A DNA stretch of 64,000 bases from Anaerovibrio sp. JC8 (GTDB lineage Bacteria; Bacillota; Negativicutes; Selenomonadales; Selenomonadaceae). The position numbers and the translations under genes are program-made. The stretch lies in assembly GCF_002100115.1 (NCBI RefSeq), contig NZ_ANBM01000001.1, positions 1 through 64,000 of the forward strand, read 5' to 3'. Under the pieces are notes generated by a model. That model saw only the letters and a program-made list of their open reading frames with translations. It did not search any database and was not told the origin of the DNA. This document shows positions 1,465-43,017 of this stretch, one piece after another (position 1 is the first letter of the stretch; every line of letters starts with the position of its first letter).

Positions 1465-1480
1465 TTTATCAGTTCCTATC

Positions 1481-1951: not shown

Positions 1952-1971
1952 CTTAATATACCTCCGTAAAA

Positions 1972-3177: not shown

Positions 3178-3188
3178 AATCTCGCTCC

Positions 3189-3827: not shown

Positions 3828-3844
3828 CTAATCACCTGTTTTTA

Positions 3845-3891
3845 CACCTCATCCGTCCACTACGTTGACACCTTCCCCTCAAGGGGAAGGC
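3845..3891 (+). repeat. Dispersed palindromic repeat, copy 1
   Basis: Starts CACCTCATCCGT and ends with the hairpin CCTTCCCCT-CA-AGGGGAAGG (3871-3890) plus GC. A second copy in the opposite orientation lies at 5268-5317; the two flank ribD and its riboswitch. In this copy the middle palindrome is degenerate (GTCCACTACGTTGAC). Confidence 0.8.
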
Positions 3892-3893
3892 TT

Positions 3894-6671: not shown

Positions 6672-6689
6672 AATTAAACGCCCCTCATA

Positions 6690-6808
6690 AAATGATAACT
6701 TATTCAGATGGAGTTTTAAACTCCACCTGAATCTAGTTGAATTTTACCCATTGCTTTACTGGCACTTAACTCCCACCTAAAAGGAAGGAGTCTTAGTGCC
6801 AGTTAGCA
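6690..6808. repeat. Structured intergenic element upstream of brnQ
   Basis: Two strong inverted repeats. One is ATTCAG-TGGAGTTT / AAACTCCACCTGAAT at about 6696-6733. The other is CTGGCACTTAACTCC / GGAGTCTTAGTGCCAG at about 6760-6806, with CCCACCTAAAAGG in its loop. On the minus strand it precedes brnQ and could be a transcribed leader. I do not recognise it as a known riboswitch, and it has no second copy here. Confidence 0.5.
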
Positions 6809-6891
6809 TCGGATATTTTTAAAGTCACAGCAAATAAAATGTTACCACCGCAATACAGGGATGTCAAAGGAATGAAACAAGATGGACATTA

Positions 6892-7575
6892 TTACAAGAT
6901 GTCCAGTACACGAAGACACTTTTCATCCACGGAGAATTTTATCTCCATCTCCCCAAATGGAAAGCCGTATACCCGCTCCGGGTCGTGGTGATAGGATGGC
7001 CGCGGGTCGTTTTGCAGGACTCCCAACAGGGCCTCCCGCTGGTTTTCCGGCACTTTTTCAAATAATTCGGGTGGGAACTCCACCTCCAGCATCCGGTTCC
7101 AGCCACCGCTGCGGAAGCCCTCAGTGGCCTCCGGGTGACTGTCAGCATAAGGAATATATGGCTTTATATCAAAAATTGGTGTGCCGTCCATCAGATCTGC
7201 CCCGCTGACTATAAGCACCGGACCATCATGGGAATCCAGCTCAACCTTTTCCAGCTTAACACTGGAAAGACCAATGGAATTAGGACGAAACGGGGAACGG
7301 GTAGCAAAGACACCAACCCGTGTATTGCCACCTAAAATAGGTGGTCTTACTGTTGGTGACCAGCCCTCGCGAACATTTTCGGAAAATTGCCAAATAAGCC
7401 AGAGATAGGAAAAGCCCTCTATCCCCCGCAGGGCATCCTCATTGCGGTATTCCGGCTCAAAGACAATGCGTCCCTTCAGCTCCTTCACCACCCCACTCTG
7501 CCGGGGAATGCCAAACTTGGTGGGAAATTCCGTCCTTATGCGGCCAATAATCTTCATTTCTATAGTATCAGTCAT
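6892..7575 (-). CDS. trmO: tRNA (N6-threonylcarbamoyladenosine37-N6)-methyltransferase
   Basis: A 227-residue TrmO (YaeB/TsaA family), which methylates t6A37 in tRNA-Thr using S-adenosylmethionine. Typical stretches are IGRIRTEFPTKFGIPRQ at the start, FSYLWLIWQF, the beta-barrel core RVGVFATRSPFRPNSIGLS, and DLMDGTPIFDIKPYIPY. A C-terminal extension (NDPRPSYHHDPERVYG) is also usual. The ATG at 7575 lies 8 nt behind AAGGA; the in-frame ATG three codons upstream abuts the ribosome site. Confidence 0.94.
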   Translation of the reverse strand: MTDTIEMKIIGRIRTEFPTKFGIPRQSGVVKELKGRIVFEPEYRNEDALRGIEGFSYLWLIWQFSENVREGWSPTVRPPILGGNTRVGVFATRSPFRPNSIGLSSVKLEKVELDSHDGPVLIVSGADLMDGTPIFDIKPYIPYADSHPEATEGFRSGGWNRMLEVEFPPELFEKVPENQREALLGVLQNDPRPSYHHDPERVYGFPFGEMEIKFSVDEKCLRVLDIL

Positions 7576-7671
7576 ATTAATCATCCTTATTTTTTTCTGT
7601 CAGAGAAACTATACCAAATTATACTGCCATTATTCAAATTTTCACAACCAGTGCAGCCATATTTACGCAAA

Positions 7672-7700
7672 GGAAAAAGCCCTCCCCGAAGGGAAGGCCC
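7672..7700 (-). terminator. Intrinsic terminator after the chemoreceptor gene
   Basis: Minus strand GGGCCTTCCC-TTC-GGGGAGGGC followed by TTTTT, 25 bp beyond the chemoreceptor stop. Confidence 0.8.
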
Positions 7701-7724
7701 AATCCTATATATTCTACACACACC

Positions 7725-9773
7725 TTACAGCTTAAACTTGCTGATTTCACTTTGCAGCTCCGTAGCCATCCTGGACAGGCTTTCAGCGGCGTTGGAAATC
7801 TCCGTTACGCTGGCACTCTGTTCCTCAGTAGCCGCAGATACGGTTTCAGCTTCCTCAGCTGCCTTTCTGCTGGCACCGCCAATGGTACGGATATGGCCCA
7901 TAACCTCTTCACCATTGGCCGCCATACCGGTTATAGCGGAAGAAATATGCTGAACCTGACCGGATACAGTTTCTACAATTTCTATAATCTGGCGGAAGTT
8001 ATCGCCCATTTTGATAATATTCTGGGTACCCACACGAACCTCTTCACTGCCGGCCTGCATACCAGCCACAGCATTGTCAGTATCCTTGCGGGTCTGCTGG
8101 ATAAGCTCGGCAATCTGGTTGGCTGCCTCCTGAGAAGACTCAGCCAGCTTACGGACCTCATCAGCTACAACGGCAAAGCCACGGCCATGCTCACCGGCAC
8201 GGGCTGCCTCGATGGCTGCGTTGAGAGCCAACAGATTGGTCTGGGCGGAAATGTTGGAAATAGTATCTACTATCTGACCGATTTCAGCGGAACGCTCACC
8301 CAATGCAGTTACCACCTTGGTGGACTCGTTGGTACTCTGCTCAATACGCTTGATCTGGCCAATAGCCTGCTCCAGAGTCTGGCCACCATCTCTAGCCACC
8401 TCTGCTGCCTCCCGGCCATGACTGGCTGCCGCATCTGCTTCGCTGGCAATAGTCTGAATGCTGTTATTAAGGTCTTCAATAGCCTGACTGGTGGAGTTCA
8501 CTGCATCCAGCTGCTCACTGGTACCCTGGGCAACATTTACAATGGAATCAGCCACCTGGTTGGAGGCCTGTGCCGACTGCTCCGTGGTTACATTCAGCTG
8601 CTCCGCTGAAGATGCCAGACTCTCTGAAGACTCACGAACCTGCTTCATTACGGAGCTTACGCCCTGACGCATTTCCCGTACAGCAGAGGCCAAAGCACCC
8701 AATTCGTTATTAACAGTAATACGGCTTGGGCGGTTGCGGAAATCGCCGGAAGCCAGCATATGCATTTCGTCCATCATCACCTGCAGCGGTGCCATTGCCC
8801 TGTTGACAGTGATGAGTACACCAAAGGAAATCAGTACCAGCAGCAGTAAGCTGATACCCACCATGATTTTCAGTACATTGCTTACCGGAGCAAAGAGCTC
8901 ATCCTGGTAAGCTATGGTTGCCATACCCCAGCCAGTAGCCTTGATAGGGTTATAGAAGGCTATCATGTCGTCGCCGGCTTTATTGGTGAACTTATAGACA
9001 CCAGCCTGGCCGGACAGCATTTTTTCACCCAGGGCCTTGATTTCAGGGTCGTCATCCTCAGAAATCTTCTTTTTCATAATGGCGTCTTCATCAGGATTTA
9101 CAATATAGGTACCTTCCTTGGATACCAGGAGGCTGTAGCCCTTCTCACCCAGCTTGAAGTCGCTTACCTTTTCCATTACGGCATCAACATAGATGGCTGC
9201 CAATACCATGCCTACATTCTGGCCATTGTTATCCTTGGCCAAAGCAATGGAGTTAACAATAATCTTGCCGGTAGCCTGGGAAATAACAGGGGAAGCCATA
9301 AAGGAGTCCTTGGCCCCGGTCATGGTTTCCTTGTACCAGGCCTTTTCTGCATTGTGCATTTCCTTAAAGCCAGCCTTGGTTTCGCCGTACAGCACACCAG
9401 AGCCGTCAAAAGGTCCCCAGCTGACGGAGTCATATACTCCCGGATAAATCTTGTTCATGAGCGCAAGACGATATTTGTTGTTCTCGTTCATGCCAGCCGG
9501 ATTATCCTTCAGCACCTTGGCGGCCGGAATGTTGGCCGACGCCTGGGTTTCCAGCATACGGGCCTCCAGCCATGCGGATACACCGTCGGATACCTCCTGG
9601 GCATTGTTCAATGAGCTGCGGGTAAGCTGATCCTCAAAGGTAGAACCCACGTATTTAAAGATAATACCGGACATAACCAGCAGACCGATAATAACAATTG
9701 GCAGCACATACATCAAAATTTCCGTTTTGACAGTGCGGACATTGTCATTTTTTGAATAATTGCCATTTGACAT
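7725..9773 (-). CDS. Methyl-accepting chemotaxis protein (membrane, dCache type)
   Basis: A 682-residue chemoreceptor. Membrane segments lie near residues 20-42 ([20 protein letters not shown]) and 297-322. They enclose a periplasmic double-Cache domain of about 250 residues ([13 protein letters not shown], then [17 protein letters not shown]). A HAMP linker ([11 protein letters not shown]) and the cytoplasmic signalling domain follow, with the hairpin tip [20 protein letters not shown] near residue 510. Such Cache sensors usually bind small amino acids or organic acids; the ligand cannot be read here. AAGGAAGGG precedes the ATG. It is divergent from the soluble chemoreceptor gene. Confidence 0.93.
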
Positions 9774-9913
9774 ATTATCCCTTCCTTTCCAGCAGAGTTA
9801 TAAATAAACCCTTTTTTCACTCTAGGTTAATAGTTCTATAACAGTAACCAAAATCCTCTTTTTCTAAAAAAATATATAATCATTTTTTACCTAATTGGGG
9901 AATATTTTTAAAA

Positions 9914-9940
9914 TAAAGAAGGATTTAACAAACCAATAAC
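9914..9940 (+). promoter_or_regulatory. Possible flagellar sigma-28-like promoter for the FIST chemoreceptor
   Basis: TAAA (9914-9917), 15 bp, CCAATAAC (9933-9940). This resembles the sigma-28/FliA consensus (TAAA-N15-GCCGATAA) that commonly drives chemoreceptor genes. The -10 half differs at several positions, so this is tentative. Confidence 0.4.
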
Positions 9941-10008
9941 GAATTTTATCTAATATAAGTGATTGTGTATGAAAGGTGTCTAGACATTAATATAGGAGGT
10001 CTAATGTT

Positions 10009-12108
10009 ATGTTTGAAAGTTTATTCAAATCAAAGCAGCCACAGGCTGACAGGCCATCACCAGCTTCACGAATCGCTCCATCTGCTGAACGTCCGGCAGC
10101 CAGGCCGTCCGTTCCAGCCACACCCGCAGCACCATCCAGTGCTGATATAAAGGTAGCCTACTTGTCTGCCAGTGAGTTAAGCTCCAACACCCTGACTCCA
10201 CTCTTTGATGTTCCGGAGGGGCCAGCCCTGGTAATGGGTTATCTTTCCCCGGATAATGATGTACGCAGCATTGCTTCCACTATAAAGGGTGTCCTGCCGC
10301 CAAATGCCAAGCTTATTTTGGTTACCACCTCTGGTGAGCTGTGCCGTCCACCTGGGAGCCGCACCCTGTATTGTGAGGCCCCGGATAACCGCAGCAAGGT
10401 TCTCCTGCAGGTATTCTCCCGCCGCATGATTGACGACAGCTATATCATGACCATTAAGCTGCCAAACGATGATCTGCGGCAGGGTCAGGTCAACATGAGT
10501 GTTGAGGACCGCGTAAACCGTATGCAGCGCGAGATCGACAGCCACCATGTTCCATTCCGCATGAACGTAAACCATACCTTTGCTTTGTTATATATTGACG
10601 GTCTGTCCAACTGCGAGTCCTTCGTAATGCAGGCCTTCTACCAGAACGGCATGTACCCTATTCCATTTATCGGGGGCAGCTCCGCCGGTCTGCTGGATTT
10701 CAAGCATACTTACATCTACAATGACAGCGAGGTACTGGAAAATGTGGCCGTGGCCGTTATCGTCCATACCAGCAAGAATTACCGCTATGGTATTCTCAAG
10801 ACCCAGGCCGTTGAAAGGGTGGGCAAGTATTTCGACGTAGTAAATGCCAACTCCGCCCTGCGCTATATTTCCACAGTTGAGGACAGAAACGGCGATGCTG
10901 TTCCATTTATTGATGCTCTTATGAGCGAGCTGGGCTGCTCCAGCGTGGCTGAGCTTAACAGCAAAATGCAGGAATACACCTTCGCCACCGACATCAAGGG
11001 CGAGAACTTTATCCGTTCCATTTCCGGCATTGACGAATCCAACTACCGCATTAATTTCTTCTGCGATATTGAATCCGGCGAGCGTCTGCATCTGATGAGG
11101 CGTGTGGGACTGGAAAGCGATCTGCAAAGAGCCATCCGGGAATTCAATCAGGGCAAACCAGCCCCTATCGGTGCCATTTTAAATGACTGTATTCTCCGCC
11201 GCCTTGGTTATCCGGAGGAAATCAAGCATGTTGATGCATTCTCCAATCTGCCGGTGGCCGGCTTCTCCAGCTTCGGTGAAATCAGTGGCCTGCACATGAA
11301 TGAGACCCTTACAGCCATTTTCTTCTACTATGAGCCAAACGGCACCTCCTTCCATGACCAGTATCTGGACTTCTTTGCAGGGCATTATGCCGCCTGTCAG
11401 GAGTTCTTCCTTACCCGTGTCATTGCCCGTCAGGCCCGTGTTGGTGCCTTGAAGGATCAGGTTCTGGACCTCTTTGATGAATATCAGCAGAGCCTGCCGT
11501 CCATCATCAAGACCATTATGCAGATGTCCAAGGACGTGGATAACGTAAAGGATTCCATGCAGGAGCTGTCCGGTGGTATTGAGGAACAGGGCTCCTACTT
11601 CACCCAGCTGCTGGAACGCAATTCGGAGATTACGCCGAAGCTGAAGCTCTTAAGCTCCAGTACGGAAAAGATTAATGACGTAATGCAGATTATTACGGAT
11701 ATTTCCTCCCAGATTAACCTGTTGGCCCTCAACGCAGCCATCGAGGCTGCCCGTGCCGGTGAGCATGGCCGTGGCTTTGCCGTTGTAGCCCAGGAGGTAG
11801 GCAAGCTGTCCAAGAGCACCCAGGAAAGTGTACAGAGCTCCGATGAAGCCATCAACACTCTGGTAAACGATGTTAAGGCCATCGACACCATTCTGGCAAA
11901 GAACAAGGAATTTGAAGCCAAGATAGACGAATTTGACCAGCGGTTCTCCAAGCAGGTGGCTTCCGTTCATGAAAGTCTCCAGCACAGTCTGGATCAGATT
12001 TCCAAGTCCTCCCAGGTTATCAAGGATTTGGACAATGTAAATGCCACTGTTACTGAAAAGCTCTCAGCATTGCAGGAAACCATCCGCAACATCGAGCTGG
12101 GTATTTAA
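10009..12108 (+). CDS. Soluble chemoreceptor with FIST sensory domain
   Basis: A 699-residue protein with no membrane segment. After a proline/alanine-rich linker (about 10-45) comes a FIST-N-like domain (about 48-265, with [15 protein letters not shown]) and a FIST-C-like domain (about 270-445, with [14 protein letters not shown]). The C-terminal part is a chemotaxis signalling domain with [20 protein letters not shown] near 570. FIST domains are thought to sense small ligands such as amino acids (family knowledge). Such receptors act in the cytoplasm on CheA/CheW. AGGAGG lies 9 nt before the ATG. It is divergent from the membrane chemoreceptor. Confidence 0.9.
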
Positions 12109-31318: not shown

Positions 31319-32179
31319 CTACATTTTTAAAAGCATAGCCACATTTTCCGGGCAGTATTCTGTCTGCTCCGACCAGCGGCGCAGGGCTTCAGATATATCT
31401 CCCGTAATGGCAGCCACAATAAAAATATATTCCACGGAAATATCCGTATAAATCAGTATATCCTCCTTGCTGTACTCCCCCAGCTTTTCCAGCTGACGGT
31501 ACATGATATACTCATAGATTTTTTGAAATGAGCCTTTTGGCATTACATTACAGTAGGCAGCCAAAAAATCCGGGTTACTTTGGGCATATTCCACATAACG
31601 CTTAATGTCCAGTTCCCAGCTGTCATCTATAGGTTCCGTTCTCCCCATAATATCCAGCACTTCCAGGGCATCTCTTTGTTCCAGACCCGGCTGAAATACC
31701 AGCTGCTCCGGCGTAAAATCGATGCCCAACATACTTAGGAGTCCAGAAAAATCCATTGTTTCCTTATGCCCCTCCAGATAGAATTCCAATGGTTTGTCAT
31801 CTGACAGCAGCAGTTCACAGGATACCTCACAGCTTAGCCCTACACCAGCCAGCTCATAGTTATCTAGCAGAGTATAAAACCGGGGATGATTGGTGCAAAT
31901 ATCGCATAATATTTCCTCACCAGCGGACAAAATCAGCTTACAAAGGCCGTTATCCTGCAAAAAGGGACAATGCTCCTCCTTCGTCAGCGCAAAAGAAAAA
32001 ATGCCATTCTGACTGGTTATGTTGGCCCGAATTTCATCTCCTAAAGGACCCGACATTTGCTGGTACTTTGTGGCCGTAGCTTTATCTATGTCGATTTCCC
32101 AGCCCTTACAGCAGGAATGGTGGCATTTATCCGCCACACAGATGAATTTATCATAGAAAGATGGATATATTGTGTGCAC
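31319..32179 (-). CDS. Flagellin lysine-N-methylase-like protein (FliB family)
   Basis: 286 residues. The N-terminal half carries the cysteine-rich core: CHHSCCKGWEIDID at 19-32, HCPFL...GLCKL, and ILCDICTNHPRFY. These Cys are expected to bind an iron-sulfur cluster or metal. FliB methylates surface lysines of flagellin in several bacteria (family knowledge). The GTG start follows AGGTGATA. It lies 83 bp after a FliD-like gene, which supports a flagellar context, though no flagellin gene is in the window. Confidence 0.82.
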   Translation of the reverse strand: MHTIYPSFYDKFICVADKCHHSCCKGWEIDIDKATATKYQQMSGPLGDEIRANITSQNGIFSFALTKEEHCPFLQDNGLCKLILSAGEEILCDICTNHPRFYTLLDNYELAGVGLSCEVSCELLLSDDKPLEFYLEGHKETMDFSGLLSMLGIDFTPEQLVFQPGLEQRDALEVLDIMGRTEPIDDSWELDIKRYVEYAQSNPDFLAAYCNVMPKGSFQKIYEYIMYRQLEKLGEYSKEDILIYTDISVEYIFIVAAITGDISEALRRWSEQTEYCPENVAMLLKM

Positions 32180-32208
32180 TCTATCACCTAAACCTTACTT
32201 TTACCTAA

Positions 32209-32236
32209 AAAAGCGCCCTGCTTTCGCAAGGCGCCA
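32209..32236 (-). terminator. Terminator after the FliD-like gene
   Basis: Minus strand GCGCCTTGC-GAAA-GCAGGGCGC followed by TTTTTT. Confidence 0.9.
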
Positions 32237-32262
32237 TGGTTCATTATTACCAATCCAGAATG

Positions 32263-33111
32263 TTACCAATACATATTTAAGAAATTACCCATATTGGCAT
32301 AGCCATTCATACGGAGCATAGCACTTCCGGTATAAACCTGAGCCGTCTTCAGCTCCTTGCCAAAAAGGGACTCAACTGATGGGAACAGCTTGTCCTTCTG
32401 AGCATTTGCAGCACTGATATGGGACTCAGTCTTACCAGCCAGTCCATCCTTACCCAGGATACGGCTAACCTTATCCGGGGAATTGGTAATTGCATTGGCC
32501 AGCTTATCCTCATCCACTGACAGGCTGCCATCCTTGCCCACACCGATACCAATACTGTTGTAATTTGAAGCACGATAAGTGGTGTCCGCAAACATCTCAT
32601 TTACGCGACCCATGCGCTTGGAAATGGAAGCATTGTCCTTAATGAAGCTAACAGAATCATTGTAGCTGCTTACGAAGTCCTTTACGTTCTTCAACGCAGT
32701 CTTCAGGCCATCGCTCATCTCAGTCTGGGTGCTGGTAGTGGTCTTGCCGTCCTTATCAGTGGTAGTAACCTCTTTCTTGGTCAAGGCATCCTTACCCACA
32801 TTAAAATCAGTGGCCTTAAGATTCTTTAAGGACTTGGAAAGATCATCCATCTTGGAGCTGAAATCCTCGTTGAAGTCCTTTCTGGTGCTTTCATAGGAGG
32901 AAAGAAGCTCCCGGGCACTTTCCTTTATGCCATAGATATCAGTAGCATTAAAGCCATAGTTGCTGTTCTGATTGCTGGCATAATTGTTCCACATAGTGGA
33001 TATTGCAGTATTTCTATTTACGTTCTTGCTGTTGGACGAAATGCCATAATTTTGCGTAAACTGACTGAAGCTGTAATTGTTGTTTATCATTGAATTAATT
33101 GTCATAGCCAT
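32263..33111 (-). CDS. FliD-like (flagellar cap C-terminal domain) protein
   Basis: 282 residues. The N-terminal 60 are Asn/Ser-rich (NSMINNNYSFSQFTQN) without a signal peptide. Residues about 65-110 and 145-240 resemble the helical FliD C-terminal core: KNVKDFVSSYNDSVSFI, then a GIGVGKDGSLSVDEDKL segment and SPDKVSRILGKDGLAG. At 282 residues it is well short of a normal FliD and lacks a clear variable outer domain. It may be a reduced cap, a decoy paralogue or a filament-associated export substrate. It has its own terminator and precedes the FliB-like gene. Confidence 0.6.
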   Translation of the reverse strand: MAMTINSMINNNYSFSQFTQNYGISSNSKNVNRNTAISTMWNNYASNQNSNYGFNATDIYGIKESARELLSSYESTRKDFNEDFSSKMDDLSKSLKNLKATDFNVGKDALTKKEVTTTDKDGKTTTSTQTEMSDGLKTALKNVKDFVSSYNDSVSFIKDNASISKRMGRVNEMFADTTYRASNYNSIGIGVGKDGSLSVDEDKLANAITNSPDKVSRILGKDGLAGKTESHISAANAQKDKLFPSVESLFGKELKTAQVYTGSAMLRMNGYANMGNFLNMYW

Positions 33112-33233
33112 AAGTCATCACCTTCCATCCTTGAAGCGAAGCATATCCTATTCTCAAAACTCATAACGTCACAATTTTCCCTAAGATATTTTAACATATT
33201 TTACCAGTTTTGTCTATTTTTTCATAATAGTTA

Positions 33234-33908
33234 TTAATTACGCTGTAATATCCAGACAATACCCTTGGCCAGACGCCAATCCGGTTTCTGGAAATGGTTG
33301 CCGGGATTAAGCTCAAACACCGTATCGATACCATTCTCTTTATAGCTATTATATATATTCCTGGTCCTATCTTCCACCTGTCCCAGCAATTTATTTTTCG
33401 TGTTTTTCTCCTTATCTCCCAAGGAGAAATATACCTTGTCCGGCATCTTTAAAAATGCATTTTCATTGGAAAAATCCTCGAAGCCCGGAAACCACAGGGA
33501 ACCGGAGGCACTGACCGCCCGTGCAAATACATCCGTCCTATACAGACTATACAGGGCAAACAGCCCCGCCAGAGAATACCCGGCAATGACCAGATATTCC
33601 GGATCCAGTGAATGCTCCTGCTTAATGGCTGGAATAATACTATTGGTCAGTTTATTGAGATATTCCTCTGCTCCGGCAGTGAAGGCCGACTCCCCCTTAA
33701 ACACAGGCGGACTTTCCCAGGGAGCCATTTCGTGATTCCAGTCAATATCCCCAACTACTGCCAGTGTAAAGGAGCTATCGGTCATTTCCGTGGCCGCCCC
33801 ATAGATCTCCCTGCCATCCCCCTGAAAGGTATTGACAACAACCAGCGGTGCCCCCTTTTCCTCACCACCATAAACATATACCCTTTTCCCTTCTGTCTCC
33901 ACCTTCAT
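33234..33908 (-). CDS. Esterase D/Fes-type alpha/beta hydrolase
   Basis: 224 residues. The nucleophile elbow is GYSLAG, the catalytic His is likely in NPGNHFQKP near the C-terminus, and an acidic partner is in SLGDKEKN. VFARAVSASGSLWFPGF is typical of the esterase family that includes enterochelin esterases. There is no signal peptide, so it is cytoplasmic. The start is uncertain: ATG at 33908 and two GTG codons (33914 and four codons further in) share one AGGTGG. Substrate unknown; no siderophore genes adjoin. Confidence 0.78.
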   Translation of the reverse strand: MKVETEGKRVYVYGGEEKGAPLVVVNTFQGDGREIYGAATEMTDSSFTLAVVGDIDWNHEMAPWESPPVFKGESAFTAGAEEYLNKLTNSIIPAIKQEHSLDPEYLVIAGYSLAGLFALYSLYRTDVFARAVSASGSLWFPGFEDFSNENAFLKMPDKVYFSLGDKEKNTKNKLLGQVEDRTRNIYNSYKENGIDTVFELNPGNHFQKPDWRLAKGIVWILQRN

Positions 33909-33932
33909 CACCACCTAATTAATTCTAAACAA

Positions 33933-33970
33933 AATTCCCTGCAAACCACAAGCCGTGGTTGCAGGGATTT
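33933..33970 (-). terminator. Terminator after the PIN toxin gene
   Basis: CCCTGC-A-AACCAC / GTGGTTGCAGGG stem with a short loop; the minus strand continues AATTTTGTTT. Confidence 0.65.
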
Positions 33971-34022
33971 AGACAACAACACATTCACGTCTCACACTAC
34001 TATTAGATGAGGAGTGATTATT

Positions 34023-34448
34023 TTATACAAGATGCCCCTCAATAAACTCATTAGGCAAACACGCCGGCACCTTTGAAGTCTCAAAATCTTTAATATTTCT
34101 TGTAATAATAAAATCCAACTTTTCATTAAATGCGCATTGCATTTGCAACCCATCTTCCAAATCTAGCCAAGCCTGATTTTCCAAGGTATCTTTTATTGTT
34201 TTATAATCTTCCGTAATAATATAAAAATATCGGCACAATAACAGTAAAACCTGTTTGCGCTTTGTCACTTCCATATCTTTGCGCAAAATATAAAACAAGT
34301 CCGTCAAACAATGGGCCGTCAAATAACCTCGAATTTTACCGTGCAGACAGGCATATAAAATCGTCTTTGCTTCAGAATTAAATGGCTCACGTTGCATTAA
34401 CCAATCAAGAACAATATTCGTATCAATCAGCACGCGTATACTTTTCAT
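34023..34448 (-). CDS. PIN-domain toxin
   Basis: A 141-residue PIN nuclease, expected to cleave RNA. The acidic sites are D in VLIDTNIVLDW near the start, LDLEDGLQ in the middle and RNIKDF near the end; these are the usual metal ligands. The ATG at 34448 lies 6 nt behind GGAGG and the gene overlaps the antitoxin gene by 26 bp. A terminator follows. Classed with VapC-like PIN_3 toxins by pattern; the target is unknown. Confidence 0.85.
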   Translation of the reverse strand: MKSIRVLIDTNIVLDWLMQREPFNSEAKTILYACLHGKIRGYLTAHCLTDLFYILRKDMEVTKRKQVLLLLCRYFYIITEDYKTIKDTLENQAWLDLEDGLQMQCAFNEKLDFIITRNIKDFETSKVPACLPNEFIEGHLV

Positions 34449-34653
34449 CACGGGCCTCCATCAATTCTGTCTTGACATCGAGATTAGAAGAAATGCTACC
34501 TGATAGTGATTCAAACAACACTAAATCTTCCGGGCTGGCACTCTCATGAAATTCCTCACTAGGAAATATCACTAAAACATTCGCTTTTTTTACAGGTACA
34601 TACCCCTTAATCGATAAATTACCATTATCGTAAACACCCTGCAGAGCAATCAT
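34423..34653 (-). CDS. Antitoxin partner of the PIN toxin
   Basis: A 76-residue acidic protein (SASPEDLVLFESLSG, ELMEARDEKY) directly upstream of and overlapping the PIN toxin gene, the usual VapBC-type order. The N-terminal IALQGVYDNGNLSIKGYVPVKK could form a small beta-rich DNA-binding or dimerisation part. The family is not recognised with certainty. The ATG at 34653 is chosen over the GTG three codons upstream, which lies too close to AGAGG. Confidence 0.72.
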   Translation of the reverse strand: MIALQGVYDNGNLSIKGYVPVKKANVLVIFPSEEFHESASPEDLVLFESLSGSISSNLDVKTELMEARDEKYTRAD

Positions 34654-34684
34654 AGTAGTCACATCCTCTCATCATCTTTGCTTT

Positions 34685-34693
34685 ATTATACCA
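34685..34693 (-). promoter_or_regulatory. Extended -10 promoter of the toxin-antitoxin pair
   Basis: Minus strand TGGTATAAT, 32 bp before the antitoxin ATG. It suggests the pair is transcribed independently of the large gene upstream. Confidence 0.5.
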
Positions 34694-34767
34694 TATTTAT
34701 TCCTTGCTTTTCGCTATTTACTTTTTGCGTATAAGGTTCCCTTTAAACAACTATTGTAGTAAATCTC

Positions 34768-37700
34768 TTAGCATTCGATTCTTTTTTGTGCTTCTTCTAT
34801 ATTATACATAGCCTCACGTTTATATTCGTCTGCAATTTTCCTAAGAATATCCGCATACCGAGAATATCCCTTCGCTTCTACAATATTCGCCCTATTGTTA
34901 TAATCTTCAGATAGTTCCAATTCTGGCTTGCCCTCTGGGTCAACATAATGTGCCCCTCTTTGATTAATAATACCTAAATAATATCCACGCCGAAGTGCAT
35001 CATTTTCGGCTAAATTTAGTTCCTTAACGATAGCCATTGGAGGAAATTTGTCAGCGTCTAAAGTTGCATACGACAATCCTGAACCGACCGTATACATTGC
35101 TACTTCAAAGCGCTCATGCTCTTTACTCCATTTTTTCACTGAATCCATCCAAGCTTTAAAAATATTTTCATCAAAAACACCATCCCAATTGATTCCTGGC
35201 GTAACCTTATATTGAAACAAAACACTAAACAGTCTATCAGCAACTCCTTTATTTACATCAACTTCATCTTGGTCACCAGATTTTCCCTTATAAAAATGCT
35301 CAAGCATACTACAAAAATAATCTGGCTCAAGACTTAATCTTGTATTTAATGCGCGTGGCTGCTCTCCTGAATATATATCAATAAAAGGTAAATAAATAAA
35401 ATCTATATCACTTCGCAATTGCAAATCTACGTTTTCCTGTTTTTGGAACCAACTAATTATGTTTTTTATAGCAAAACTATCAATTGACTCATTACCTATA
35501 GATTCCTCTGTTCCTGCAAGTATTAATAGATTATAAACGTCACTTGCCGTAATGACTGGTTCAAATTCAGAACGTCCGAGCAAATTTACGGCTGTAATAT
35601 ATCGCTTGCAAGACTTAAGTTTTTCTAAAATAATACTTAAAAATTTAATATCTGCCTCGTTGCAGCAATAAGGCATCACCGCTTTTTCCCAATAAGCATA
35701 CTCATCTGTCAAAACTATATTTACTATTTTTATTAATTCTTGTGATAATGGTATCTTTGAGAGCATCTCTAAAATAAACCCTTGATCCTTACTACTCAAT
35801 GAAGTGGCTAGGACTTCTGATGCCCCACGACAATATAAAAAAGATGCAAGACAGGAAATGGTAAACTCTTTTGACAATGTCTCCAAATAACATGCATCAA
35901 TTATCATTGACTGCTCACCAACATTCAGCGACCCACCCAGTCTTCTTGCAACATCATCTATGTTTTTCACCGCATAGCCAAACGCTTCAGTTCCCTCATA
36001 TCCATAACGATCAAAAATTTCCCTTACTGCCACACTCTTTTCAGTCTCAACCTTTTGCCATGTACTAACATAGTCACCCTTATCAATAAAACGCTTCGTT
36101 CCCAAATACAACTCACGATACTTTAGCCTAATATCGTCTGGTTCCATCTTTTCAATCAAATTCTGAAATCTATCCATTTTTTTTTGCAAAACTTTACCTG
36201 CTGTAGTTTTTATCAGTTCAATACTCTCACACAAATTTAACCACAGAGAAAAGATATGCTCTTTCGTATTTTTTTCAATACAGGTATCTATATGATCTAA
36301 GTAATTATCTAATGTTTGGTCATTCATATATGTTATTTTACTAGTCAAGTCTACAATTTTGTTAACATCACACTGTGCCTCATCAACCGCTAACCCCAAT
36401 AAATAAGCATACTCGTTACTTATTTCTGCACTCGTAACATTTATTTTTTCTGGAATATCTAATAATAGATACCGTGGTCTAGGATTATTCATACTTGTAC
36501 ATCCATAACTCGGCAATAATTGACTTAACACGTCCCAATAAATATCCATGTTTTCATTTTTTAGGCTTAATAACGCATTCTTTCTTTTTGCAAAACCTGC
36601 AACTGTCTGTGGATACCAAGGAAGTAATATTGAAATGATAGAATTTTTGGGTGTATTAGACCAATTAGTTTTTGTATATGACAATGTTTCCAACAATCCC
36701 AATATTCGTATAGAACGAACTAAAAAATCTGGCGACCATGCCAATATTTCCAAGGACCATAACAGATGAGTAATATAATTGGCTGTGCCAAATAATCCAC
36801 TTTTTTGCGGGAATAAACGCAAAATTTCTTGAGGTTTATTTATTATTCCCTGTTCAATCATATCCAAAAAGCATTCTGGATCCAACTCTGCTAAATATTC
36901 CAAACAATCACTAAGACTTGCCCATCTAGTCCATTCAACATTTTGCAACGTTTCTCTTACCAACAGTGAAATCATATTTTCGATTTTATTACGGTTACAA
37001 TTAGATATATCAGGAAGTGCTTTTTTGATCCAGCATACACTTTCAATTAAACTCTTACGCAGTTCAACAGAATTATCGTACTCATCTGAAACAGAATAAC
37101 AGTAATCATTTTGATTCATTACCATTTTACTTTTTTGCAATAAAACATTTTTAGTTGCTTTGACTAATTTTTCAATAGAAGCATCAAATAACATTTCTTT
37201 ACACTGGAGCAATATTTCGTCTTTATGAAGTACCTTCCAACTTCCATTAGTCAATTGCAAATAAGCAGAATTACCCAAAATCATATTCTTTGCTTTTAGT
37301 TCAAAATCTGAATAATTCAAGCCTGAGATTTTTTTAATAGTCTGCCTATCAAAATCATTATCCTCCCTCCAAGCCCCAATCATAGCAATAGTTGGAACAA
37401 AAAAATCTAGTCCTGTAATTGGAGCAGGAATAAAGGTTATTAACTTTTTAACTAAAAATAAATCCTGTATACCCTTATCAATATTATTCATGTCAATAGA
37501 AGCACCAGCCTGATTGCAGAAGCCCGCATATTCTACAAGCCTTTCCCAAACACCATAGGCATCCATTGAAGAATTGCACTTAATTAATGCAGCTGATAAT
37601 GTACGATTTACGCTTTCATTACAATCCATATCAAACAACAACAAAATAAATGCCTTACAAAAACGCCATAATGCAAATGGTTCTGGCTTACTCCCCTTAT

Positions 37701-38226
37701 AGGATGTAATAATATTTTCTATAGTATTATAAGTTTTGTCGATATCTGAACTAGCATAATTGACAAGACTTATTCTACGCCTAAAATCTTTTTCATCACT
37801 TGATACAATGGCCTGCTCATGTATAAACCTTAATGCTTTTTGTTTACTAGGATGAATCTGTGCTGTTAACAAAGCAATTTGGTCTTTTTCTTTGTCAAAA
37901 GAATCTTTACAAAAATCACTCCATGCTGCACAAATAACTTCCTGAAATGTCTTATCTTTTTCAGTTACCTTTACACTATGTTTTATTTGGCAGAGCATTT
38001 TTCTATCTTTATTTTTACCATAAGTAAATACTACCAAGTCATCAACATCATATCCCAAATGTTTAGCTTGAAAGCACACTTTTTTTGTCCTCTCATTCAA
38101 TGCAGGGCAGAATCCATCTATCAACAAAGATAAAAGGAACATCGCCTGGATGCGCTGCTCAAAATTCCCCCCTCCATTCCCTGTTGAAAAGGGATTACTT
38201 ATTTTACTAACCATGTTTTTTCCCAT
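34768..38226 (-). CDS. Large protein with N-terminal Cap4-like nuclease domain, putative defence effector
   Basis: 1152 residues. The N-terminal 200 resemble the restriction-like nuclease domain (Cap4/DUF4297 type) that heads many anti-phage proteins: NPFSTGNGGGNFE (11-23), then DVDDLVVF (60-67) and CQIKHSV (79-85). E23, D63, Q80 and K82 are the likely PD-(D/E)xK residues. The remaining 900 residues look mainly helical. I find no Walker A or B motif, unlike Avs-type STAND proteins. The C-terminal tail (RRGYYLGIINQRGAHYVDPEG, then a GYSRYADILRKIADEYKREA helix) resembles tails of other defence NTPase proteins. GGAG lies 8 nt before the ATG. Function inferred from domain and island context only. 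Confidence 0.75.
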   Translation of the reverse strand: MGKNMVSKISNPFSTGNGGGNFEQRIQAMFLLSLLIDGFCPALNERTKKVCFQAKHLGYDVDDLVVFTYGKNKDRKMLCQIKHSVKVTEKDKTFQEVICAAWSDFCKDSFDKEKDQIALLTAQIHPSKQKALRFIHEQAIVSSDEKDFRRRISLVNYASSDIDKTYNTIENIITSYKGSKPEPFALWRFCKAFILLLFDMDCNESVNRTLSAALIKCNSSMDAYGVWERLVEYAGFCNQAGASIDMNNIDKGIQDLFLVKKLITFIPAPITGLDFFVPTIAMIGAWREDNDFDRQTIKKISGLNYSDFELKAKNMILGNSAYLQLTNGSWKVLHKDEILLQCKEMLFDASIEKLVKATKNVLLQKSKMVMNQNDYCYSVSDEYDNSVELRKSLIESVCWIKKALPDISNCNRNKIENMISLLVRETLQNVEWTRWASLSDCLEYLAELDPECFLDMIEQGIINKPQEILRLFPQKSGLFGTANYITHLLWSLEILAWSPDFLVRSIRILGLLETLSYTKTNWSNTPKNSIISILLPWYPQTVAGFAKRKNALLSLKNENMDIYWDVLSQLLPSYGCTSMNNPRPRYLLLDIPEKINVTSAEISNEYAYLLGLAVDEAQCDVNKIVDLTSKITYMNDQTLDNYLDHIDTCIEKNTKEHIFSLWLNLCESIELIKTTAGKVLQKKMDRFQNLIEKMEPDDIRLKYRELYLGTKRFIDKGDYVSTWQKVETEKSVAVREIFDRYGYEGTEAFGYAVKNIDDVARRLGGSLNVGEQSMIIDACYLETLSKEFTISCLASFLYCRGASEVLATSLSSKDQGFILEMLSKIPLSQELIKIVNIVLTDEYAYWEKAVMPYCCNEADIKFLSIILEKLKSCKRYITAVNLLGRSEFEPVITASDVYNLLILAGTEESIGNESIDSFAIKNIISWFQKQENVDLQLRSDIDFIYLPFIDIYSGEQPRALNTRLSLEPDYFCSMLEHFYKGKSGDQDEVDVNKGVADRLFSVLFQYKVTPGINWDGVFDENIFKAWMDSVKKWSKEHERFEVAMYTVGSGLSYATLDADKFPPMAIVKELNLAENDALRRGYYLGIINQRGAHYVDPEGKPELELSEDYNNRANIVEAKGYSRYADILRKIADEYKREAMYNIEEAQKRIEC

Positions 38227-38464
38227 AAAAGCATCTCCATAGATTGAAAAATAATAAGTAATAATCTTTCTATATGGTATTTTTAGAAAAGAATTACTCT
38301 CATTAAAACTTACCCCATTATAAAAAAATCAATTATGCCAAAACGAAAAATCTGTCATTACTATCTTCAATAACAATTTAACATCCATTTTTTGTCCCCG
38401 AAACATCTATTTCACCACAAAAAATCAGTAACAATATTGTTCATCCATTAAAAAATCGAATTAC
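38227..38464 (-). other. Intergenic region between the two nuclease genes
   Basis: 238 bp, very A/T-rich, with no gene. It contains the perfect 12-bp palindrome AACAATATTGTT at 38430-38441, possibly an operator or part of the upstream gene's 3' end. There is a good -10 (TATAAT, minus strand, near 38325) without a convincing -35, so the 1152-residue gene may have its own promoter. No intrinsic terminator is obvious. Confidence 0.4.
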
Positions 38465-40339
38465 TTAAACATTACTTCCACCATTTCTTGTCTTTTGACG
38501 CTTCTTTTTAGCACAACGTGGGCACCCATGACCATCTTTAAGCATATGCGGTGTTGCATACCAGTTATTACCACATTGCTTACAATGACATTCAATTTTT
38601 GTGTCAGTACTAATATATTCTCCAATAATATCTATATTGGGGTTCACAACACTCATTTGAAAAACAAATTCTTCTGTTGATAATTTTCTTGTTCCACCAC
38701 ATGCAGGACAACCGGTTGGTTTAGAACTTATTAACTGCCCTGCGGCTGGCTTCCACCTGTAACCACACTTATTACATTTACAAGCAATCTTTTCTTTACT
38801 ACCTCTATATTCACTTTCAACCTCTATATGTGGATTAATAGAATGTAGCTTTTGAATAAACTCAGACTGTGAATACATTCTCTTCTTTCTGCGTATCTCG
38901 ATTCCACATTTAGGGCATCCTTTCCCAGCAAGTAAATCGCCAGGGGAAACATACCACTCTTTGTCACAAACCATACATCTACACAGGAGTTTTGAAGCTA
39001 CAGATTCATACTCCCCCATAACTTCTATTGTTTTATTTATCCCTCTAAGACGCTCCTTAAATTGTTCTGTTGTTACTCTCCGTGATTTAATATATGCTAA
39101 TCTACTTATTCTTTCCCACACTGGTTCGGTAAAATCGTTTGTAATATTTATCATCGCAAACAAGCTTTTTACGAGCATAACCAATCTCGAAAACTCTCTT
39201 TGATTCGCTAAATCTGACTCTAATGTAACTATGTTAGACTTATCCAAAGAACCCCCGTCATAATCATAATAGATAATAATTAATTTTATATTTTTAGCCT
39301 TACACAGTGATTGCTTTTGTATATCCATTTTATATTTCTTACAGTGCCACGTCCAAGACCCTGGTTCAATTGCAAAATTTTTAGACGGAATAAAAATATC
39401 TAGCTCTTTTCCAATGACTGACCTATCCCTTGAAATGACATTTTCCTCCCCTAATACCCAAATAAACGATTGGAGGATAAATTGCTCAACATAAGATGTC
39501 GAAGCATGCGCACAATTTGGGCATCCTCTTTTATGTAATAACATATGAGGAGTTACTTCCCATTCATAGCTGCAAATTTTACATTTGCATAATATTTTTT
39601 CATTTACACCTTTGTACTCACCTAAAACGAATATATTATCATTAATAGCTGCCAATTCAGCAATGAACTCATCATGCGCACGCTTATGTTTTTCACCTCT
39701 TACTTCATAAGAGCATTTTCTACAAGATCTTCCACGCAGCAAACTGTCACCAATAGGTGACCAAACATTACCACATTTCTTGCACTTACAAGCAATACGA
39801 TTTTTGGTACCAGTATATTTTCCAATCAGTTCGATACTATCATTTATAGCCGACACTTTCTTAATGAATTCCTCTTGAGACATTCCACTCTTTCGTGCAA
39901 CAGCTTTTTTAGAACAATTTGGGCAGTGGCTCTTTCCCATTAATAAATTATTTGCTGTTGGTAACCATTCAAAACCACATTTGTTGCAACAGCATCTCAC
40001 CTTTGCAGATGAACGCGTATACTCATCTAATACTTTAATCGTTGAATCTATTTCTCTAATTTTTTCCACAAAACTTTTATTATTCCAATCCCTTTTGACG
40101 CATGTTTTTCCTTTATGTGAACTACTCATTTTAACTTTAGCGCACTCAGGACAATTCGTTCCACGCAAAATATTGCCAGCTTCGGGAAACCATATATTAT
40201 TACATATTAGGCAATGACATTCAATAACATCTCCAAGCTTGCTATATACTCCAACCACATCAATATTAGGAGATATTTCTTTTATTTTTTTACGAAAAGA
40301 ATCTGTATTCCACTTTGTTTGAGGATGTTTTTCCATCAT
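38465..40339 (-). CDS. Seven-repeat zinc-ribbon protein with inserted nuclease-like domain
   Basis: 624 residues from the ATG at 40339 (GGAG 6 nt upstream; an ATG four codons earlier overlaps that site). Numbering here is from that earlier ATG. Seven repeats of about 60-65 residues share F-x7-IN..I.V.GEY, two paired CxC/CxxC sites, a W, LL.G and CP.C: near 19-70, 94-146, 162-213, 229-280, 430-482, 498-551 and 561-613. Between repeats 4 and 5 (287-405) is a Vsr/PD-(D/E)xK-like domain: E289, ISRDRS, ELDIFIP (316-322), AIEPG (327-331), D343 and the KLIIIYYD strand. The repeats resemble DUF4379-type zinc ribbons. DNA binding and cleavage are inferred. Confidence 0.75.
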   Translation of the reverse strand: MMEKHPQTKWNTDSFRKKIKEISPNIDVVGVYSKLGDVIECHCLICNNIWFPEAGNILRGTNCPECAKVKMSSSHKGKTCVKRDWNNKSFVEKIREIDSTIKVLDEYTRSSAKVRCCCNKCGFEWLPTANNLLMGKSHCPNCSKKAVARKSGMSQEEFIKKVSAINDSIELIGKYTGTKNRIACKCKKCGNVWSPIGDSLLRGRSCRKCSYEVRGEKHKRAHDEFIAELAAINDNIFVLGEYKGVNEKILCKCKICSYEWEVTPHMLLHKRGCPNCAHASTSYVEQFILQSFIWVLGEENVISRDRSVIGKELDIFIPSKNFAIEPGSWTWHCKKYKMDIQKQSLCKAKNIKLIIIYYDYDGGSLDKSNIVTLESDLANQREFSRLVMLVKSLFAMINITNDFTEPVWERISRLAYIKSRRVTTEQFKERLRGINKTIEVMGEYESVASKLLCRCMVCDKEWYVSPGDLLAGKGCPKCGIEIRRKKRMYSQSEFIQKLHSINPHIEVESEYRGSKEKIACKCNKCGYRWKPAAGQLISSKPTGCPACGGTRKLSTEEFVFQMSVVNPNIDIIGEYISTDTKIECHCKQCGNNWYATPHMLKDGHGCPRCAKKKRQKTRNGGSNV

Positions 40340-40742
40340 AATAAACTCCATAAATAATATAACGAATCCAGTATTACTTAAAACTTGATATTGTTTTTGA
40401 GACGTCAGTTTTGATTATTTCCATAATAGTATTTCGCACTATATTACTACTTATCCTGCTTGCAACCAAATTAAAAATCAATCTCTAACATGTATAAAAA
40501 CGAGCTTATCCTGTAAAAAAAGTTTTCCTCCCACCATCCTAAAATAATTCCACACAAATACTAAAAGAAGTATTAAACTCGATTATTTAGCAAAAAAACT
40601 GACAAGCTATAAAAAGCTTGTCAGTTTTCTCTATTATTGCAGTATATAACTTGCATACCACTTTTCCCTATATGAATAAAATGATTATATACTGTTATAA
40701 TTTTAGTGAATACCCCAATACATGTTCTATTTGTTGCTTTAA
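40340..40742. other. Intergenic region at the right edge of the island
   Basis: 403 bp without a gene. It holds the guaA-side terminator (40590-40632) and a short inverted repeat AATACT-AAAAG-AAGTATT near 40558. No start codon with a good ribosome site is seen, nor a tRNA or recognisable attachment site. Confidence 0.5.
40590..40632 (-). terminator. Bidirectional terminator after guaA
   Basis: ACTGACAAGC / GCTTGTCAGT stem. The minus strand continues with seven T and the plus strand with TTTTC. Confidence 0.85.
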
Positions 40743-42287
40743 TTATTCAAATTCAATAGTTGCAGGTGGTTTGGAGGTGCAGTCGTACATTACGCGGTTT
40801 ACGCCCTTTACCTCGTTGACGATACGGTTGGTAACCTTGTGGAGAACCTCCCAAGGTATCTGGGCGCTTTCAGCGGTCATAAAGTCGCTGGTCATTACGG
40901 CACGCAGTGCAATGGCATAATCATAGGTTCTGAAGTCACCCATAACGCCTACGGAACGCATATTGGTCAGTGCTGCGAAATACTGGCCCAGGTTCTTGTC
41001 TACTCCGGCCTTGGCAATTTCCTCACGGTAAATTGCATCAGCATCCTGAACAATCTTAACCTTTTCTGCGGTAACCTCACCGATAATGCGGATGCCCAGA
41101 CCAGGACCCGGGAATGGCTGACGATTTACCAGATACTCCGGAATCTCCAGCTCACGGCCGGCCTTGCGAACCTCGTCCTTAAATAGCAGACGCAGTGGCT
41201 CCACGATTTCCTTGAAGTCCACATAATCAGGCAGACCGCCTACATTATGATGGGACTTGATAACGGCGGACTTGCCCAGACCGCTCTCAATAACATCCGG
41301 ATAAATGGTACCCTGTACCAAAAAGTCTACGGCACCAATTTTCTTGGCCTCTTCCTCGAATACCCGGATAAACTCCTCGCCGATAATCTTACGCTTGGCC
41401 TCCGGCTCAGTTACACCCTTGAGCTTTTCGTAGAAGCGCTCCTGGGCATTAACCCGGATAAAGTTCAGATCATAAGGACCCTCAGGACCAAATACGGCCT
41501 CAACCTGATCACCTTCATCCTTGCGGAGCAGGCCGTGGTCTACAAATACACAGGTCAGCTGCTTGCCGATAGCCTTGGACAGAAGAACTGCGGCTACAGA
41601 GGAATCTACACCGCCGGACAGGGCACACAGGGCCTTGCCATTACCGATTTTCTCCTTCAGCTGCTGGATGGTGGTGGCCACGAAGGAATCCATGCGCCAG
41701 TCACCGGAGCACTCACATACCTTGTAAACAAAGTTGCTGAGCATCTTGGAGCCCTCTACGGAGTGAAGCACCTCCGGATGGAACTGTACCGCATAAATCT
41801 TGCGGGACTCGTCCTCCATACCGGCTACAGGGCAAACAGGGGTATCAGCAGTAACTGTGAAGCCCTCAGGTGCCTTGGAAATATAATCTGTATGGCTCAT
41901 CCAGCAGATGGTCTTGCTGGAAACATCAGCAAACAATTTGGAAGCGGAACTCTTGATAGAAACCTCGGTCTTGCCATACTCACTGACTGGTGCGGTATCT
42001 ACCTTGCCCCCCAGGAGATGGGCAATCAGCTGAGAACCATAGCAAATACCCAAAACCGGCACACCCAGCTCAAAAATTTCAGTGCTAATGGTAGCGGATT
42101 CAGGCTTGTAAACGCTATTAGGACCACCAGTAAAAATAATGCCCTTTGGATTCATTTCCTTAATCTTCTCAATGCTTAAGGTATTCGGATGAACCTCGCA
42201 GTATACATTACATTCACGGACACGACGGGCAATCAGCTGATTATACTGACCACCAAAATCCAATACCAGTATCATTTCATTTGCCAA
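40743..42287 (-). CDS. guaA: GMP synthase (glutamine-hydrolysing)
   Basis: A 514-residue cytoplasmic enzyme converting XMP to GMP. The class I amidotransferase half carries the nucleophile Cys in GICYGSQ and the His in VQFHPEV. The PP-loop ATP pyrophosphatase half begins [12 protein letters not shown], and the dimerisation domain ends at PPATIEFE. The TTG at 42287 is taken as start because AAGGAGG lies 9 nt upstream; the next in-frame ATG is 21 nt from it. It is a single gene with a terminator after it and a three-hairpin repeat before it. Confidence 0.96.
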
Positions 42288-42331
42288 GAGTTATAGCCTC
42301 CTTCAAAATTAGTCGAAAATGTCACAAGTCA

Positions 42332-42473
42332 TTATAACGCAATTGTTCAAATTTTGCCATAGGCAAAATATTTCTATTAGCGTTTCAACGAGGCGGGAGA
42401 TAATTACTCGCTGCCTGTTATTTGTTTTTTCTTACTTGCAGAAGAATAAGACAGCTTTTTGCCGAGTTATAAC
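42332..42473 (-). repeat. Three-hairpin repeat element, copy 1 (upstream of guaA)
   Basis: 142 bp bounded by TTATAAC and its inverse GTTATAA. Three hairpins: 42351-42369 (ATTTTGCC/GGCAAAAT), 42387-42419 (AAC-G-AGGC..GAG / CTC..GCCT-GTT) and 42430-42451 (TCTTA-CTT / AAG-TAAGA). It shares ATTGTTCAAATTTT and TTAGCGTTTCAACGAG with the copy at 48720-48867. The left end supplies TATAAT facing guaA, so it may carry the guaA promoter. Confidence 0.8.
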
Positions 42474-42490
42474 ATACCCGAATAATTAAT

Positions 42491-42520
42491 AAAAGGGACT
42501 GCTTTACGCAATCCCTTTAC
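42491..42520 (-). terminator. Terminator after recX
   Basis: Minus strand AAAGGGATTGC-GTAAA-GCAGTCCCTTT followed by TATTAATT. Confidence 0.8.
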
Positions 42521-42546
42521 AAAGAATCCAATTCAATTTATTTGAT

Positions 42547-43017
42547 TTATTCCCCGGAATCCTCCTCAGGCCACTCCTGCCGATAAGCCTCAATGGCATC
42601 TCTGGCGGCACTGAAGTCATAGCCTCTGGTGTACAGATATTGCTGCATTTTTCTCATATCTGCTCCCGGCCTGAACTTGCTGCGCAGGACCCGGCTGGCC
42701 TTTGCCAGCTCCCGGTCATATATCTCCTCAGGCACACAGGAACGGACCAGAGAGCTGTCATAGCCCTTTTGCATCAGCTTGGCGCAAATCTGCTTTACAC
42801 TGTAGCTGGAGGACTCGTAGAGATATTCAAACCTTCGTTGGCAGCCGGCCTCATCGTCGATAAAGTGCTTCTCCTGAAGCCACTCCACCGTCTCCTGAAT
42901 CTCCTCTTCGCTGTAATCCTTGCGGGCCAGCTTTTCCTTCAGCCGGCGAACGCTTTGATCACTGCGGGACAATAAATCCACGGCCTTGGCCTTGGCTGAT
43001 GGCTTATAATTACTCAT
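42547..43017 (-). CDS. recX: Regulatory protein RecX
   Basis: 156 residues of the helical RecX family, which blocks extension of RecA filaments. Three repeats are visible, with [33 protein letters not shown] near the N-terminus and [15 protein letters not shown] in the middle. It overlaps the end of recA by 8 bp, so translation is coupled to RecA and RecX should stay sub-stoichiometric. A terminator follows. Confidence 0.93.

Follow-up and report, generated by a model that had tools for sequence, protein, structure and literature searches.

The window, a 64,000-nt stretch of DNA from Anaerovibrio sp. JC8 (contig NZ_ANBM01000001.1), contains on its minus strand a single open reading frame of 628 aa (38465–40351; open reading frame list of the window) in which a predicted nuclease core lies between two arrays of zinc-type units. 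The reading frame opens at 40351, but the ATG at 40339 is the better start because a GGAG (40346–40349, read by eye) lies 6 nt upstream of it. The coding sequence was therefore placed at 38465–40339 (minus strand), which agrees with the original prediction. Residue numbers of the units and the core are counted along the 628-aa reading frame.

Seven C-x-C-x2-C motifs (residues 45, 120, 188, 255, 457, 524, and 588) were found in register with seven C-x2-C motifs (residues 67, 143, 210, 277, 479, 548, and 610). Four of the corresponding units precede the core: R1 (residues 13–74; 40130–40315), R2 (88–150; 39902–40090), R3 (155–217; 39701–39889), and R4 (222–284; 39500–39688). Three follow it: R5 (425–486; 38894–39079), R6 (491–553; 38693–38881), and R7 (556–617; 38501–38686), all on the minus strand. 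A layout of four units, core, and three units within one reading frame had been proposed, and the paired cysteine motifs confirm it. The same proposal described the units as near-identical; this was incorrect, with pairwise identity ranging from 27% to 43% (mean 35%, 21 pairs). The Pfam family CapR (PF21817) matched over 6 stretches of the protein (E = 7.2e-30; 103.4 bits, against a gathering cutoff of 24.2, which places the protein in the family) and DUF4379 over 5 stretches (E = 2.1e-14). A further match was obtained to Transpos_assoc (E = 2.6e-11). Chance or a frame artefact as the source of the units was ruled out by the CapR and DUF4379 matches and by the recurrence of the arrays in relatives.

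C2H2 fingers are absent, and the units, of the form C-x-C-x2-C ... C-x2-C, are CapR/DUF4379 treble-clef-type modules, not classical fingers. In the full-length model (pLDDT 77.6, pTM 0.34) each unit consists of a helix, strands, and a helix, and the second pair of cysteines sits close to where a helix begins. This modelled secondary structure, obtained from a model built without zinc, would fit a treble clef. Given the pTM of 0.34, the mutual placement of the units is not predicted. Fold searches with the units returned weak PDB matches only (60 residues, Z 5.9, a mitoribosomal protein), and a search of viral structures returned 246 matches at E ≤ 0.001, among them several with treble clef or zinc-ribbon in their names, some from giant viruses. 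Passages of PMC10448857, in whose print DUF4379 appears in places as DUF4397, describe zinc units of the CapR, DUF723, and DUF4379 types as DNA-binding modules that recombine among T5orf172 homing endonucleases.

The Vsr/EDxHD-like nuclease core (residues 285–404; 39140–39499, minus strand), delimited by the structure model, fold matches, and alignments, contains the motif ELDIFIP...AIEPG. It is followed by a modelled helix leading into R5 (residues 405–424; 39080–39139, minus strand), in which W412, I415, A419, and Y420 were invariant in a four-row alignment. The Pfam scan of the protein matched no nuclease family, the NCBIfam scan gave nothing near its cutoffs, and a single-sequence search of the PDB gave no match at E ≤ 1. 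PHROG families matched by the protein are named HNH endonuclease (2.3e-92), endonuclease (3.5e-73), and homing endonuclease (1.5e-9). A profile of the core built from four close relatives matched the PDB sequence of the EDxHD homing endonuclease I-Bth0305I weakly (E = 0.0064). The core modelled from a 22-row alignment (pLDDT 89.7, pTM 0.85) was aligned by VIA-align to the very short patch repair endonuclease Vsr (1cw0; Z 8.7, 111 aligned, 3.7 Å), to I-Bth0305I (3r3p; Z 8.1, 96 of 98 residues, 3.0 Å), and to a second Vsr entry (1vsr; Z 7.7). These Z values are moderate, one mitoribosomal protein also reaching 8.6, and Foldseek gave no match to the core model at E ≤ 0.001. The core is predicted to have a Vsr-like nuclease fold, in line with what had been proposed from the sequence. 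Because the model matches Vsr-type folds, the outcome that would count against that proposal, a core with no nuclease fold, did not occur.

The predicted active-site positions are nearly invariant among the 31 rows of the clade described below: E289 (39485–39487; E in 29 of 31), D318 of ELDI (39398–39400; 31 of 31), E329 of AIEPG (39365–39367; 31 of 31), H336 (39344–39346; 29 of 31), and K346 (39314–39316; 31 of 31), all on the minus strand. Position 362 is D or E in 28 of the 31 rows, and the window protein has Y362 followed by D363. E289, D318, and H336 and an acidic residue at 362 would be the positions of the EDxHD motif; in the window protein the last of these is out of register, which may have slipped by one at Y362-D363. 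P330 occurs in 6 of the 31 rows, all within the window's subclade, where AIEPG mostly stands in for the common AIEYDG. The tyrosine at 362 bears on an alternative in which the protein is a domesticated DNA-binding regulator, its arrays binding DNA as those of CapR from the phage satellite PLE do and its core no longer cutting; CapR is described in passages of PMC10448857 as a repressor related to the DNA-binding domains of homing endonucleases. Retention of E289, D318, E329, H336, and K346 argues against loss of cutting, and D363 could stand in for the residue lost at 362. We consider this alternative improbable.

Relatives of the full-length protein were found by tblastn in 528 of 50,697 phage records, as compared with 166 records (E ≤ 0.01) for the core alone, so that many of the phage matches probably arise through the units. 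Among the 40 of these 166 records that were listed, several carry the annotation Hef-like or EDxHD homing endonuclease. Within the window's genus the gene was present in 1 of 16 genomes, namely the window's own, and was absent from all 15 others. Full-length searches were positive in 2 of 151 genomes of the order sample and 11 of 398 genomes of the phylum sample (own genome included in both), and searches with the core profile in 7 of 350 genomes of the class and 28 of 299 genomes of the family of G391. Units lay on both sides of the core in 23 of the 28 core-bearing reading frames from the fetched bacterial loci, the exceptions being two frames of L166, L170_948, L173, and L184 (near a contig end). 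The numbers of front and rear units were 2 + 2, 3 + 3, 4 + 5, 6 + 1, and others, so that a special meaning of the "symmetric split" into four and three units, as had been suggested for the window gene, is not supported.

In a tree built from 81 cores on 145 columns, a small number for an alignment of this depth, all 27 of the 27 rows with the core in the middle fell inside one clade of 31 rows (support 99/93), and the window row fell in a subclade of eight rows (100/97). In the remaining four rows of the clade, units were found before the core alone (L125 and L184) or not at all (L173), or the gene is interrupted by a transposase gene (L116). Because these four rows lie inside the clade, the core-in-the-middle arrangement needs three changes on the tree. 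Fourteen of the 19 rows with a C-terminal core were placed in a separate 16-row clade (96/88), and phage proteins of the Hef type formed a weakly supported group of their own (92/55). Viral contigs or a plasmid are the source of three of the 31 rows (L076, L116, and L125); the remainder are from bacterial genome assemblies, which may include prophages. Proteins with the nuclease inside the array thus form a distinct clade, found mostly in bacterial genomes. One relative directly follows a phage RNA polymerase subunit gene annotated in six pieces, and one sits between terminase genes. Tails resembling NUMOD1 or the NUMOD of I-HmuI were seen in 3 of the 10 clade members scanned, all under the Pfam cutoffs (proteins of G1011, G023 at L006, and G586 at L169).

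Several loci showed additional arrangements. In one genome (G690, L164), two core-in-the-middle nuclease genes (6244–9132 and 9160–11337) are in tandem, 27 bases apart, and perhaps form a two-subunit enzyme. The phage copy in L116 (3845–6820) lies before an apparent tape-measure gene, and the transposase that splits it looks IS630-like (by eye). In G391, a close relative is apparently split over two contig ends, the end of C18 and the start of C15 (L132, L133), partly with stop codons. A 38% identical relative (L003, 2–2109) has as neighbours an integrase-like gene and one resembling a plasmid relaxase (by eye), a setting that suggests a mobile element.

Neither the domains nor their combination is new. 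Passages of PMC12350094 (2025) describe homing endonucleases of phage introns in which three to five CapR-like units are followed by a C-terminal EDxHD/Vsr domain, and refer to thousands of UniProt hits, which may include core-in-the-middle proteins. The window protein resembles those enzymes in combining CapR/DUF4379/DUF723-like units, of which it matches CapR and DUF4379, with an EDxHD/Vsr nuclease, and differs from the C-terminal arrangement of those passages in that three units follow its core and in that proteins of its kind form their own clade. Repeated, exchangeable CapR-type DNA-binding modules are also a feature of T5orf172 (GIY-YIG) homing endonucleases and of CapR of PLE, but in the passages of PMC10448857 on these proteins the nuclease is at one end in the T5orf172 type and absent in CapR. 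I-Bth0305I, which the window core resembles in fold, is dimeric and has a target spanning nearly 60 bp, according to passages of PMC3943268. The likeness to Vsr is likewise one of the core fold, and no cytosine methyltransferase was present among the eight neighbouring proteins scanned with Pfam. Vsr is a small stand-alone mismatch nickase, whereas the window core is embedded in zinc-type arrays; I-Bth0305I is not known to carry a CapR array. What is new is the embedded core, its single clade, and its mostly bacterial spread, none of which was found in the open-access literature searched.

A comparison within one genus provided a candidate case of array exchange. The loci of G989 and G1011 have the right-hand flank in common (89.6% over 3.5 kb), and their nucleases with rear arrays were 97.4% identical over 383 positions (pS 0.04). 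Their front arrays were only 64.2% identical over 148 aligned positions (pS 0.46), with one extra unit in front in G1011, for which the start codon is unsure. This synonymous jump in the front array points to recombination exchange rather than point selection. The front array looks to have been swapped between these two species of one genus, in this one pair. Modular reading of DNA could be tested with this pair, in which the front arrays differ and the nuclease and rear array are almost unchanged. Between L178 and L181, from two species of one genus, short stretches next to the nuclease gene were reordered, one of them inverted.

Divergence between close copies of the unit was greatest in two stretches, at approximately columns 23–27 and 41–51 (103 unique units from the fetched loci). 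In units of the mEp021 phage family, dN/dS was 0.62 in the variable stretches vs. 0.14 elsewhere (89 close pairs from 23 unique units, the pairs not independent and synonymous sites near saturation). The contrast was small in close pairs of other units (0.29 vs. 0.26, n = 4); nearly all close pairs come from the mEp021 family, and the variable stretches were chosen on largely the same data as the comparison. Positive selection on these stretches was not found, dN/dS not exceeding 1. As the mEp021-family proteins end in an apparent GIY-YIG domain (by eye), the contrast bears on the unit family, not on the window gene. The pattern would fit positions of base contact but would also fit relaxed surface loops. 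Differences at several linker positions had been described from the sequence; within the unit, the part that was analysed, variation was strongest at these two stretches, in close copies nearly all of one phage family. Proteins of the mEp021 type in L029 and L126–L131 contain CapR units that arose by recent duplication (six in L029) and are useful for mapping base-contact positions.

The modular zinc-type array, the one nuclease domain, and the two variable stretches per unit recall a natural zinc-finger nuclease in the strict sense, with near-identical fingers, a readable code, and one nuclease. The low mean identity of the units, their membership in CapR/DUF4379 rather than C2H2 families, the lack of any code shown, and a dN/dS in the variable stretches that stays below 1 despite its excess over the rest of the unit all argue against this reading, which we regard as very improbable. 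The broader part of the original prediction, a modular DNA reader holding one nuclease, is supported in part, by the CapR/DUF4379 modules, the predicted nuclease fold, the two variable stretches per unit, and the swapped-looking front array; its comparison with zinc-finger nucleases in kind is not.

The gene lies in a low-GC segment (33221–40743) between guaA (40743–42287, minus strand) and a conserved flank. GC content is approximately 33–36% from 34 kb to 40.7 kb and approximately 50% around it. Homology with three relatives of the genus (G001, G003, and G005) runs up to the guaA stop codon and begins again at 33221. These relatives carry approximately 0.5 kb at this spot, with an arsC-like gene (from translation), a relative of which (65%) is present on another contig of the window's genome. 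At the same spot, G002 carries approximately 8.7 kb with one SIR2-like and one HerA-like gene; in G011, guaA is followed by methyltransferase-like genes and one DUF262-like gene (from translations). The stretch after guaA (window; L058, L060–L062, and L067) is a turnover spot in the genus. A homing event is not readable here because the gene is in no other genome of the genus and the spot differs from that of the relatives by 7.5 kb, not by the nuclease gene alone. The nuclease gene is free-standing in the variable spot; an Rfam scan of 32000–43000 gave no element and no intron association, and no convincing flanking direct repeats marking integration were found.

The next gene (34768–38226, minus strand) encodes a protein of 1152 aa. 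Its first 260 residues or so are similar (31% over 263 aa, 3e-37) to the N-terminal domain of a 1708-aa protein of G852 (L182) that is assigned to Avs4 by PADLOC (4.1e-174) and adjoins a core-in-the-middle nuclease; the rest resembles phrog_18693, the function of which is not known. The neighbour is possibly an unrecognised defence protein. PADLOC-DB 2.0.0 returned 0 families at E ≤ 1 for it and for the window protein. A fixed pairing of the two genes was rejected: homologues of the neighbour in L069–L071 and L075 lack such a nuclease across the 19 kb retrieved per locus, and only L182 had neighbour and nuclease paired, in reversed order and with the N-terminal domain alone in common. The same low-GC segment holds a PIN-domain (PIN_3) gene (34023–34451), which perhaps encodes a toxin.

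Defence-like genes directly adjoin several members of the clade: HerA with SIR2 (L180), a type III restriction-modification system (L170), the Avs4 protein (L182), and GmrSD-like genes (L004, with DpnII and DitA also nearby). Mrr (L167) and PDC-S41 (L169) were found one gene further away. L170 also encodes, one gene from the nuclease and on its other side from the type III system, a 1171-aa protein (948–4463) matching DpdF in PADLOC (3.5e-100) and, weakly, the core profile (1e-9). Strong PADLOC matches (E ≤ 1e-79, approximately the level down to which the 25 families listed allow counting) numbered 10 to 12 among 131 neighbour proteins, nine of them traced (the L170 methyltransferase being inferred from its Pfam match) and one to three untraced (spbK, PDC-S11, and PDC-S14). 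They numbered 4 among 130 control proteins from the same genomes, from which five longer than 1000 aa had been dropped for size (135 to 130; Fisher test, P = 0.07–0.17). At 1e-15, 123 PADLOC families were matched by neighbours vs. 109 by controls. By locus, the counts were at least 6 of 24 for neighbours and at most 4 of 20 for controls, control matches not being traced to loci (P = 0.48, computed for 6 vs. 3). Defence enrichment around clade members is suggestive but not significant.

These surroundings bear on the alternative that the gene is a defence nuclease, that is, a homing endonuclease adopted by bacteria that cuts fixed phage or plasmid sequences and is retargeted by array swaps beside defence genes. 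The gene content of the guaA spot in G002 and G011, the defence-like neighbours across the clade, and the domain that the 1152-aa protein has in common with the Avs4-like protein all favour it. It is weakened by the control comparison, by the failure of PADLOC to match either window protein, and by the tendency of variable islands to collect selfish as well as defence genes, and we regard it as rather unlikely.

The interpretation that we favour, and consider probable, is that the product of the window gene, which lies in a variable island, is a site-specific DNA endonuclease with an embedded core that derives from homing endonucleases. Descent from homing endonucleases is supported by the CapR/DUF4379 units, the PHROG names, the fold likeness to Vsr and I-Bth0305I, the conserved residues, the annotated phage relatives, the NUMOD-like tails, the apparent front-array exchange between G989 and G1011, and the earlier description of CapR units with EDxHD/Vsr in the passages of PMC12350094. 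Points against it are Y362, the lack of a Foldseek match to the core, the moderate Z values, the lack of an Rfam element in the region scanned, the absence of the gene from the 15 other genomes of the genus, the 7.5-kb rather than single-gene difference at the spot, and the full-length pTM of 0.34. We infer that the protein binds zinc and DNA and cuts DNA, that it descends from homing endonucleases, and that the content of its units sets the target. Under this interpretation, the seven CapR/treble-clef-type units, four on the N-terminal and three on the C-terminal side of the catalytic domain, would bind along a long asymmetric site, each probably contacting DNA through its two variable stretches, and the Vsr/EDxHD-type core held between the arrays would then cut. 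The gene, of a mostly bacterial branch with the nuclease inside the array, sits with possible defence cargo in the low-GC segment after guaA. It may serve selfish homing, defence, or both in turn.

It is unlikely, on this evidence, that the separate bacterial lineage represents a form of restriction re-aimed at new phage or plasmid sequences by whole-array exchange, with the core kept fixed, moving in defence islands and sometimes found beside Avs4-type proteins. If the arrays are exchangeable and each unit reads a few bases, the family would be a natural modular scaffold for DNA targeting, with the cutter in the middle.
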